Shown one piece after another: positions 22,943 through 26,798 of a DNA stretch of 38,183 nucleotides. Origin of the DNA: Deltaproteobacteria bacterium. Lineage in GTDB: Bacteria; Desulfobacterota; Desulfarculia; Desulfarculales; Desulfarculaceae. The DNA lies in NCBI GenBank assembly GCA_021811275.1, contig JAJZPI010000015.1:1-38183 (forward strand), written 5' to 3'. The notes below the pieces were generated by a model. That model did no database searches and was not told where the DNA came from. It was given only the letters and a program-made list of their open reading frames with translations. Made by a program: the position numbers and the translations under genes. Within the stretch, counting starts at the first letter, position 1; every line of letters starts with the position of its first letter.

Positions 22943-23662
22943 TCACTTGACTATCAACTCCGAGTCGTTGGACGAGACCCTCTTTTTGATCCAACCCGGG
23001 ATCAAGGAGACCAATACCAGGAACACGGCTCCCACCGCCAGATAAAGCAGGGTCTTCTTGATGTCCCCCTGCCCGCTGACCAGCGCGCCGCCGGCGAAGC
23101 AGTAGGCGGCCGTGCCCGGCAGCATGCAGAGCAGGCTGACCAGGACATAGGTGGGCAGGCCGATGCCGGTGAGGCCGTAGGCGAAGTTTTGCAGGTTGAA
23201 GGGAAACAGGGGAACCAGGCGGGTGATCATCACCATGCGCCAGCCGTGACGGCCCACCCCCTGGTCGATGCGGCGAAACAAGGGGTTGCCGGCCGCCCAT
23301 GATTCCACCAGCGGCCTGACCGCATAGCGGGCGGCCAGGAAGGACAGCGTCGCCCCCAGGTTGGAGCCGATCACCACCCAGAGCATGCCCCACCAGGCCC
23401 CGAAAACCACCGCCCCCAAAAGGGTGATGGGCAACCCCGGCAGGAAGAAAAGGCAGGCCGCCACCCACAGGGCCACGTAGGCCGCGGGGGCGATCCAGCC
23501 CAGGCCGCGCACCTTTTGTGCCAGCTCCTGGAGGTTGTCCAGGGTCAGGTGGCTGGAAAGCCCGCTGGCGCGCAGCGCGGCGAAGCCGGCCGCCAACAGC
23601 CCCAAGAGAAGGACGAGCCTCAACCAGGGCCGCTTTGGCTTGGCGCCGTTTCCCTCGGGCAT
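22943..23662 (-). CDS. TVP38/TMEM64 (DedA-like) membrane protein
   Basis: The 239-residue protein has about six hydrophobic segments and the SNARE-associated-domain pattern: LPGLPITLLGAVVFG, SFLAARYAV, and RLVPLFPFNLQNFAYGLTG. Proteins of this family sit in the inner membrane. In bacteria they are often found with mercuric-reductase-like or thiol-redox genes; some family members move phospholipid head groups. The ATG follows AAGGAGA. It is the last gene of the selenoprotein island, 66 bases after the thioredoxin-like gene. No TGA codon interrupts it. Confidence 0.85.
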   Translation of the reverse strand: MPEGNGAKPKRPWLRLVLLLGLLAAGFAALRASGLSSHLTLDNLQELAQKVRGLGWIAPAAYVALWVAACLFFLPGLPITLLGAVVFGAWWGMLWVVIGSNLGATLSFLAARYAVRPLVESWAAGNPLFRRIDQGVGRHGWRMVMITRLVPLFPFNLQNFAYGLTGIGLPTYVLVSLLCMLPGTAAYCFAGGALVSGQGDIKKTLLYLAVGAVFLVLVSLIPGWIKKRVSSNDSELIVK

Positions 23663-23728: not shown

Positions 23729-24049
23729 TCAACTCTTGAACATCCGGCCCAGCAGACCCTTCCTGGCCGGCGGCTCGGGCGCGGGCAAGCCCAGGTGCCG
23801 GCAAATGGCCCCCTCCAGCTTGTCCTCCGGGCAATCCGAACCCTCCACCAGAATCTCATCTCCCACCATGATGGCCGGGGCGGTCGGAAGGTCAAGCTCA
23901 AAGTACTCGTCGGTCTGGTAATCGGCCCGGGGCTTGGAGGTGTACTCAGTCTCGATCTGATACTTGGCGGCCAACCTGGGCGCCATCTCCTGGAAGTGCT
24001 TTCACGGCTTGCCGTTGGGCTCATTCAGGAAATACCTAACCTTCAACAT
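23729..24049 (-). CDS. Thioredoxin-fold selenoprotein candidate (in-frame TGA at codon 16)
   Basis: A frame starting at ATG 24049, eight bases after AAAGGAG, reads 15 codons (MLKVRYFLNEPNGKP), then TGA at 24004-24002, then continues open for 90 residues to a normal stop. The product is 106 residues if the TGA is selenocysteine. The TGA falls after the first strand, where thioredoxin-like proteins keep their reactive Cys. A cis-Pro-like segment (PTAPAIMVGDEILV) and a final helix fit the fold. Two further Cys are present (GSDCPED, AICRHLG). A SECIS-like hairpin follows the TGA. The frame after the TGA has no good start of its own. It lies 16 bases after the rhodanese-DsbD gene. Confidence 0.8.
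23965..24004 (-). promoter_or_regulatory. SECIS-like hairpin after the TGA of the thioredoxin-like gene
   Basis: After TGA and 16 bases comes a stem TGGCG/CGCCA, a C-C mismatch, two more C-G pairs and the loop AGGTT. The loop begins 24 bases after the TGA and has G in its first two positions, within known limits for bacterial SECIS elements. Confidence 0.6.
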
Positions 24050-24065: not shown

Positions 24066-25823
24066 TCAGTTGCCCTTGCTCTCGGCCTGTGCGCCGCTCT
24101 TCAACTTGCCCATGCGTTCCAGGAATTGAGGCGGCGGCAGGAAATCCACCAAACGCATATCCAGTCTCTCCTGGCCTTGTACGTCCAGAAAGACCACGGT
24201 GGGCACCCCCTTGACCTCGTATTGCGCCAATAGGCGTTCATGCACGGGATTGCCCTTTTGGGTCAGGTCCACCTTGACCATCACGAAGCCACGCTCGGCC
24301 TCCCCCACCACCTGCGAGTCGTGGAAGGTGATATCATCCAGCTCCCGGCAGGGAGCGCACCAGTCGGCATAGAAGTCAATGATGACCGGCTTACCGGCCT
24401 GCCGGGCCTCGGCCAGGGCCTGCTCGGAATAATCCCGCCAGGACACCCCCGGCCCCATGAGCAGCCAGGAGCCGGCCAGGTAGGTTGCGATGACGAGGCC
24501 GGCCAACGCCGCGCTCACACGAAGCCACGCGAAGGCTCGGAAGGCGGCGGGGGTGCGGTCCAGCCAGCCCATATGCAGGGCTCCGGCCAGGGCCACGGCG
24601 GCCAGCAACAGGTAGCGGGTGCCGTGGGGCAAGAGCGGCCCCAGGAAGTAGGCCGCCATGCCCAAGAGCACCCAGCCCATGAGCTTGCGCACCCAGACCA
24701 TCCACTCACCCGAGCGGGGCAGAGCCTCCAGCCGGCCGGAGAACATGGCCAGGACGAATAGCGGCAGACCCAGGCCCAGGCTCAGGGTGAAGAAGATGAT
24801 GAACCCCAGCCAGGGACTGCCCAGGCTGGCCACCCAGGTCAAGAGCCCCAGTACAAAAGGCCCCAGGCAGGGCGCGGCCACCACCCCCATAGTCGCCCCC
24901 ATGAAAAGGCTGCCGAAGTAACCGGCGTGGCTCTGGGAGGCGGCGCTGGTGAGCCAATTGGGCGGACGCAGTTCCCAAAGACCGAACATGGACAAGGCGA
25001 AGGCCAGGAGCACCCCGGCCACAGCCACCAAGACTAGGGGGCTTTGCAGGGCCGCTCCCATAAGGCCGCCGGTTAGGGCGGCGAAGACACCCAGCAGGGA
25101 GTTGGTGAGCGCCAAGCCCAGCAGATAGCAAAGGCCATGGGCCAACAGGCCGCCTTGCCCTTGTCCGCTGCGCCCGCCGAAGTAGCTCACGGTGATGGGG
25201 ATCATGGGATAGACGCAAGGCGTAAGGTTCAGGGCCAAGCCCCCCACGAACACCCCAAGCAATGTCCAGAGCATGGCCCAGCCGTAGAGGGGCCGCTCCG
25301 GGGGCGGGGCAGCGCTGGTCGCCAGGCCAGCCGGCGCCGATGCCACAGGCAGACCGGCGGCCTGCCAATCAGGATAACCCTTGGGGTCGCGATATATCTG
25401 TTTGTAGCCCAGAGAGACGGCCACCCGGGCCGCCGAGTCGCTGCGGACTCAGGTAAGGCCCGCTCAGTAGAAGACTATAAATCGGTCCTTGTCCGGCCCC
25501 AGCAGGGCCTCCAGGCTGGCCTTCTTGCGCCAGCGCGACCAGGCCGTGGGCTCCATGGGGAAATTGATCGCGTCCCGGATGTATCCGCTGCGGTATTCCC
25601 AGTCCTGGCGGGTGTCCACCAGGAGCGTTTTTTCCGGCTCGTCGCGTAGGCGCGCGTAAACTTCGTCGGTGGTGATGATCCGGTAGCCGCCGGCCTTGGC
25701 CTCGGCCTGCACGTCATCCCAGGTGGCTTCCTTGGGGGTCACCGCCCGGTTGGTGAACCACAGCGCCCCGGCGGTCACCGTCACCGCCAGCATGGCCAGG
25801 AGTATCCTTTTCCATCCGCTCAT
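24066..25823 (-). CDS. Rhodanese-DsbD fusion selenoprotein candidate with two in-frame TGA codons
   Basis: One continuous frame of 585 residues runs from ATG 25823 (GGAGG upstream) to 24066, interrupted only by TGA at codons 120 and 125. Layout: a membrane anchor (about 5-23); a rhodanese domain (about 35-160) with LLVDTRQDWEYRSGYIRDA and the active-site strand RFIVFY followed by TGA-AGLT-TGA, then SLGYKQIYRDPKGYPDW, the normal rhodanese end; a DsbD/CcdA membrane domain of about eight helices with Cys203 (NLTPCVYP) and Cys319 (AAPCLGP); and a C-terminal thioredoxin domain with WCAPC (488-492). Related rhodaneses carry Cys at the first TGA position. It probably moves electrons across the membrane toward an extracytoplasmic persulfide/selenol site; this is inference. 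Confidence 0.82.
25416..25466 (-). promoter_or_regulatory. SECIS-like hairpin serving one or both TGA codons of the rhodanese-DsbD gene
   Basis: Stem GGCC/GGCC with loop CGGGT and an outer GAC/GTC pair lies downstream of both TGA codons. The loop starts 21 bases after the second TGA and 36 after the first, both inside the spacing known for bacterial SECIS elements. Confidence 0.5.
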
Positions 25824-25962: not shown

Positions 25963-26448
25963 CTAGGGCTTCCCGGCCTTCTTGAGTTTGGTTAGCAGAA
26001 ATTGCGCACCGGCCGAGGAAATCCCCAAGGCTTGGGCCAAGCGGTCCGCGCCGGCGTCAGGCAGGCCCCGCAGCAAATCGACCGCCTCCCGTTCCAGTTC
26101 TTCCATCCAATCCTCGAAAAGGATCAGGACATCCGGCTCGGCGACCGCTTGCAGTTGCTCCGAGCGGGCCACCCGCTCCACCAGGGTCTGACACATCTTG
26201 GTAGGGTCGACGCCTTCGCCCAGGCACTCGGCCAGTCAGAGATGCACCAGGCTCGAAACCTTGTCCTCGCCCGGCTCCCCGGCCAGACCCATGATTATCT
26301 CGGCCTTTTCGGTCTCATCCAGGTCGGTCAAGACTTCGGCCAAGACACGCTGCAGGGTGCGGGCGGAGGCCAGGGGCCCCAGGCCGGCCAGGGCCTCCAA
26401 AACCCGGGAGCGCGTCCTGGGGTTGGGCGCTTCGCTCACCCCGCTCAC
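25963..26448 (-). CDS. Unknown helical selenoprotein candidate (in-frame TGA at codon 71) coupled to ArsR
   Basis: GTG at 26448 overlaps the arsR stop (GTGA), so translation is coupled. The frame reads 70 codons, a TGA at 26238-26236, then 90 more codons to a normal stop: 161 residues in total. Around the TGA the protein reads SSLVHL-Sec-LAEC, so the selenocysteine would be four residues before Cys75, with Cys86 further on; such a group suggests a redox or metal site. The product is mostly helical, and its end (RLAQALGISSAGAQFLLTKL) resembles a helix-turn-helix. I do not recognise the family. The alternative is two short genes, but the second has no ribosome site. Confidence 0.65.
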
Positions 26449-26798
26449 CGGGCGCTCCTCTTGGCCAGGCCGGCCAGGGCCCGCAACGCCTCAAGCACCT
26501 GGGGGCCGGCCATTTCGTAGAACACGAAGGGGCCCTCGCGTTGCACCTTGAGCAGACCGGCTTGACGCAGTTCCTTGAGGTGGTGGGAAACCAGGGGCTG
26601 GGACAGGCGGAGTTCCTCCACCACCCTGCCCACCGGCTTGCGGCCCTGGGCCAAGGCCAGCAGAATGCGCAGGCGGTTGGGATCGGATAGACCCTTGCCC
26701 ATGGCCGCCAGTCTGGGGAGCAGCCCGCGCAGGTCCTCAAGGGGGCCGTTGGCGTTCAGGCGCGCGCTGCCGGCCGGTATGAAATCGGCTTCCTTCAT
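26445..26798 (-). CDS. ArsR/SmtB-family transcriptional regulator
   Basis: The 117-residue protein has the ArsR winged helix (GLSDPNRLRILLALAQG, then LRLSQPLVSHHLKELRQAGLL and the wing VQREGPFVFYEM). It contains no Cys at all, so it cannot bind arsenite or mercury by the classic Cys pairs; a different ligand, or sensing through the coupled Sec protein, is possible. A palindrome covers the start codon and the bases before it, implying autoregulation. No Shine-Dalgarno precedes the ATG, so the mRNA may be leaderless or the true start slightly later. Tag is divergent. Confidence 0.85.
   Translation of the reverse strand: MKEADFIPAGSARLNANGPLEDLRGLLPRLAAMGKGLSDPNRLRILLALAQGRKPVGRVVEELRLSQPLVSHHLKELRQAGLLKVQREGPFVFYEMAGPQVLEALRALAGLAKRSAR

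Follow-up and report, generated by a model that had tools for sequence, protein, structure and literature searches.

A TsoB rhodanese/DsbD fusion selenoprotein with two close selenocysteine codons and a candidate bSECIS element in a Desulfarculaceae genome

In the 2026 review PMC13188914, Tso is the “three selenoprotein operon,” with Haft & Gwadz 2023 and Haft & Tolstoy 2025 given as sources for such operons, and its member TsoB is described as a protein with two selenocysteine (Sec) residues and the motif UxxxxU. TsoB itself is credited there to Haft & Tolstoy 2025 (mSystems 10:e0141724). The same review gives a bSECIS model that consists of a loop of 3 to 9 nt with G within its first two positions and a stem of 4 to 16 bp, located 16 to 37 nt from the UGA and with an energy of at most -7.5 kcal/mol. 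Here, we compare with these systems a gene in the window (i.e., the whole stretch of 38,183 nucleotides analyzed) from a Desulfarculaceae genome.

The gene at 24066..25823 is an ordinary TsoB member. The NCBIfam model for this family, NF045694 (“rhodanese/DsbD fusion-like selenoprotein TsoB”), matches residues 6 to 574 of the encoded protein with 989.3 bits, over the cut-off of 805. A first-pass annotation, made from the sequence alone, knew of no described example of such a double-Sec rhodanese-DsbD fusion, but the kind was already known and named, and the find in this window is ordinary because the family has already been catalogued. The fresh points that remain beyond the known family are an RNA element that may be common to two close Sec codons and a Cys/Cys homologue.

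Read on the minus strand with TGA as Sec, the gene translates as MSGWKRILL...FIVFYUAGLTUVRSDSAARV...ESKGN-stop, and the frame stops at a terminal TGA (codon 586, nucleotides 24066 to 24068). The first-pass annotation had placed the gene at 24066-25823, and this interval stands, with the gene assigned to the minus strand; the plus-strand reading of the interval yields no such protein. Its description of a single frame joining a membrane anchor, a rhodanese domain, a DsbD membrane domain, and a thioredoxin domain is borne out by the translation and by three Pfam domains over cut-off (Table 1). As it also stated, TGA codons 120 and 125 are the sole interruptions of this frame, at which a standard-code ORF finder cuts the gene, and the first of them falls at the rhodanese catalytic Cys: in an alignment with solved rhodaneses, codon 120 aligns with the active-site Cys, and codon 125 lies in a loop that is two residues longer.

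Table 1. Features of the tsoB locus and its neighbors in the window
Feature	Position	Strand	Evidence
tsoB, rhodanese/DsbD fusion selenoprotein, 585 aa, Sec120 and Sec125	24066..25823	minus	Translation; NF045694 score
UGA codon 120, Sec, on the rhodanese catalytic Cys in alignment	25464..25466	minus	Translation, homologues, alignment
UGA codon 125, Sec	25449..25451	minus	Translation, homologues
N-terminal membrane anchor helix, residues 4-27	25743..25814	minus	AlphaFold2 helix H4-27 and hydrophobic sequence
Rhodanese domain, residues 51-156	25356..25673	minus	Pfam PF00581, 48.3 bits (cut-off, 22.2)
DsbD transmembrane domain, residues 185-397	24633..25271	minus	Pfam PF02683 (DsbD_TM), 143.5 bits, over cut-off
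C-terminal thioredoxin domain, residues 462-547	24183..24440	minus	PF13899 (Thioredoxin_7), 57.4 bits, over cut-off
Hairpin 1, weak, GAGUC-CGCAGC-GACUC	25435..25450	minus	99.2% of cells paired; synonymous constraint; -4.8 kcal/mol in the window
Hairpin 2, GCGGCC-CGGGU-GGCCGU, best bSECIS candidate	25417..25433	minus	Covariation, loop, energy, spacing
tsoC, NEPxGxxU selenoprotein, Sec16 at 24002-24004	23729..24049	minus	NF045708, 140.5 bits (cut-off, 45)
tsoA, LULAxC motif selenoprotein, Sec71 at 26236-26238	25963..26448	minus	NF045695, 184.9 bits (cut-off, 170)
tsoR-like ArsR/SmtB regulator	26445..26798	minus	NF045707, 113 bits (cut-off, 115; 2 bits short)
VTT-domain membrane protein, downstream	22943..23662	minus	PF09335, 83.5 bits

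Because TsoC, TsoA, and a TsoR-like ArsR regulator adjoin tsoB, we assign the locus to the Tso operon. The regulator is over cut-off with the generic ArsR model NF033788, the U position of TsoA stays TGA across homologues, and the TsoC model has a thioredoxin/SelW-like fold (pLDDT 92; Z of ~9 against thioredoxins and SelW-like proteins). TsoR, TsoA, and TsoC were found again near TsoB in most other loci, and neighborhood counts place the VTT protein downstream in only some of them; a VTT protein, a thioredoxin reductase, a methyltransferase, or a VTT protein fused to an arsenate-reductase-like domain lies nearby in some Tso loci. An apparent fusion of this last type, with a VTT membrane domain and an arsenate-reductase-like (ArsC) domain, is located downstream of TsoC at L058:10673-11848. 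In some loci (L058:9639-9902, L065:8171-8437, L067:8175-8441, and L114:8188-8448), TsoC is immediately followed by another TsoC-like selenoprotein, a diverged one with NEPxGKTU or NDPKGKTU.

One genome-contig scan yielded 80 loci, stand-alone DsbD proteins included, and a TsoB motif search of these loci, five loci from related genomes, and the window gave 53 TsoB loci. Both codons are TGA in 53/53. One of these loci (L096) departs from the common sequence shortly past the motif and was omitted from later counts, leaving 52. Cultured carriers of TsoB include Desulfoprunum benzoelyticum and Desulforhopalus sp. IMCC35007. Among 395 scanned genomes of the phylum, 21 had matches over the family cut-off, and all matches over it but one had TGA at both codons; UxxxxU was also present in 19 further fetched loci, some of which represent genomes already counted. 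The lone exception (L195 in genome G327, motif at nucleotide 4386) is a full-length protein, FYCAGPDCVRSD, in which TGC and TGT take the place of the two TGAs. Genome G327 also has a TGA/TGA copy (L196) beside TsoA and TsoC, while none of TsoA, TsoC, and TsoR turned up near the Cys/Cys copy. C-x4-C, with the spacing seen in TsoB, occurs in stand-alone rhodaneses from related genomes, four of which (L160 to L163) have C-x4-U instead. As TsoB loci, L195, and the related rhodaneses show nothing else, positions 120 and 125 hold only Cys or Sec in this sample, which is the outcome that the first-pass annotation had proposed to look for among homologues.

The four C-x4-U proteins (L160:1283-2329, L161:422-1492, L162, and L163) combine a rhodanese domain with a ResA/thioredoxin-like domain; their Sec corresponds to TsoB Sec125, and Cys-Cys versions of this protein occur in L150 to L152. 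C-x4-U is absent from the rhodanese forms of PMC13188914, and neither of two such proteins scanned was over an NCBIfam cut-off.

The first-pass annotation had also named selA, selB, selC, and selD as genes to look for, and three of them were present in the genome: selA, selB (C116), and selD (L012/L061, G000:C175), the last with its own in-frame TGA, so that SelD in this genome is probably itself a selenoprotein. For tRNA-Sec (selC), no match over cut-off was obtained in the draft (98% complete, 245 contigs), no selC lies beside selB, and the sub-threshold matches that were fetched are ordinary tRNAs. Congeners G002 and G003 each have a tRNA-Sec at 70 bits, which was confirmed by ARAGORN in G002. 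DNA flanking the G002 selC has scattered matches in the draft, mostly of ~65 to 75% identity and largely to a repeated gene family, one of which reaches a contig edge. Since the genome is a draft of 245 contigs, an assembly gap is the likely cause of the missing selC.

Codons 126 to 135 of tsoB are under synonymous constraint and contain a covarying bSECIS-type hairpin in reach of both UGAs, a feature that is seemingly undescribed. Past UGA125, the codons are nearly fixed for Val126 (GTC, 49/51), Asp129 (GAC, 51/52), Ala132 (GCC, 47/52), and Val134 (GTG, 47/51), and codon entropy is 0.14 to 0.76 bits at V126, D129, A131, A132, V134, and A135, compared with a mean of 1.50 bits at conserved codons elsewhere. 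Two hairpins can be drawn over this stretch (Table 1); together, they have 99.3% of cells paired, with far fewer paired when they are slid along the alignment. Two-sided changes were observed in 9 cells, versus 0.7 in shuffles, and every one is in hairpin 2. The apical loop of hairpin 2 lies 21 nt past UGA125 and 36 nt past UGA120, both within the bSECIS spacing; the loop agrees with the bSECIS rule in 52/52 sequences (G, then G or U), Arg133 is encoded by CGG, CGT, or AGG, with CGC and CGA absent, and the energy is at most -7.5 kcal/mol in 48/52. Hairpin 1, whose first stem bases are inside UGA125, has no pair changed on both sides, so its support is the synonymous constraint; its mean energy is -4.6 kcal/mol, and on its own it falls short of the bSECIS energy rule in 52/52. 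It is possible that hairpin 1 represents an accessory element or a first SECIS. A single long hairpin directly past UGA120 was rejected as a SECIS, with 79.6% of cells paired versus 79.2% in shuffles, and an Rfam search over the window returned nothing at gathering scores.

These patterns suggest that the RNA structure of codons 126 to 136 directs Sec insertion at both in-frame UGAs. We lean slightly toward a scheme in which the two Sec codons, 15 nt apart, are decoded via one compact RNA element, either with hairpin 2 serving both or with tandem hairpins serving one each; the shared version appears somewhat likelier. No bacterial precedent for such a two-Sec RNA arrangement was found in the literature covered, which did not extend to the original Tso paper.

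Could the two TGAs be ordinary stops, so that the gene is either broken or in fact a pair of neighboring ORFs of ~119 and ~450 aa? The division made by the standard-code ORF finder and the failure to find selC in the draft would fit, but both TGAs are kept in every Sec-type homologue, the Cys/Cys homologue L195 reads through uninterrupted, synonymous constraint begins immediately 3' of the TGAs, and the genome has selA, selB, and selD, all of which make this explanation very improbable. We consider it just as improbable that the UGAs specify some other residue through near-cognate suppression or an altered code. Nothing specific favors that possibility, and it is at odds with the Cys of homologues at both positions, with the use of TGA as the terminator of both tsoB and tsoC, and with the existence of a SECIS-like element. 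Reading both TGAs as Sec is strongly supported, and the identification of the gene as tsoB of a Tso operon with both UGAs read as Sec is, in our judgment, very likely.

What TsoB does with its two Sec residues can be approached through its predicted structure. In an AlphaFold2 model built from 45 homologues (mean pLDDT 78, pTM 0.59), the C-terminal domain resembles cDsbD (2fwf; Z 18.6, rmsd 1.9, 118 aligned), and the rhodanese domain resembles 3tp9 (Z 15.5, rmsd 1.8, 111 aligned) and the sulfurtransferase GlpE (1gmx; Z 13.8, rmsd 2.5, 106 aligned). Cys203 and Cys319 in the DsbD membrane domain and Cys489 and Cys492 in the thioredoxin domain (WCAPC) are invariant in 45 sequences; since all DsbD-type cysteines are invariant, the classical DsbD electron route should be intact. 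From sequence, we infer an N-terminal anchor and a periplasmic rhodanese domain. In Escherichia coli DsbD, the C-terminal thioredoxin domain passes electrons on to the N-terminal domain. By analogy, electrons from cytoplasmic thioredoxin would pass to C203/C319 of TsoB, then to the periplasmic pair C489/C492, and from there to the rhodanese-like domain, where they would reach a diselenide of Sec120 and Sec125. This domain is sited as the N-terminal domain of classical DsbD, and the Sec pair would then reduce some periplasmic sulfur, selenium, or metalloid species. We regard this electron path to the Sec pair as reasonably probable, and TsoB may thus be a periplasmic reductase acting via a diselenide. 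A loose hint at metalloid or selenium chemistry comes from the ArsR-type regulator, together with the VTT, thioredoxin reductase, methyltransferase, and arsenate-reductase-like neighbors that some loci have.

The rhodanese domain may instead be a sulfurtransferase, with Sec120 holding a selenenyl-sulfide or persulfide derived from thiosulfate or polysulfide and with the DsbD part and Sec125 reductively freeing sulfide. The location of Sec120 at the rhodanese catalytic position and the fit of the fold to true sulfurtransferases such as GlpE are consistent with this function. However, the second Sec or Cys, five residues on, is conserved alike, a pattern that resembles a dithiol redox pair rather than a one-cysteine enzyme, and neighborhood counts over the loci revealed no sulfur-donor gene recurring beside TsoB. 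We consider sulfurtransferase activity less likely. The “double-selenol persulfide site” proposed in the first-pass annotation is a guess at the chemistry. The diselenide reductase is the reading that we prefer.

Overall, this locus provides independent confirmation of the double-Sec reading of TsoB and a testable case of two close Sec codons that may share a single short RNA element. The natural full-length Cys/Cys homologue, together with C/C, C/U, and U/U forms of one rhodanese loop, offers material for experiments.

Compared with described TsoB (NF045694), the protein matches in its domains, UxxxxU motif, two Sec residues, and TsoA/TsoC/TsoR-like company, and no difference was found. Rhodanese selenoproteins of forms 1 to 4 (PMC13188914) likewise have Sec within a rhodanese domain, but with UxxS, UxxG, or CxU and one Sec, and they are not listed as DsbD fusions. 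The stand-alone C-x4-C and C-x4-U rhodaneses (L150 to L167, L036, and L038) share the loop spacing of TsoB, with ~32 to 41% identity over the best-matching rhodanese stretch, but they are without a DsbD domain and have zero or one Sec. Classical DsbD (NF001419) is similar in its membrane domain with a Cys pair and its C-terminal thioredoxin domain, whereas the tsoB protein scores 249.9 bits against that model, below the cut-off of 330 and over residues 184 to 574 only, and carries a Sec/Sec rhodanese domain in place of the DsbD N-terminal domain.
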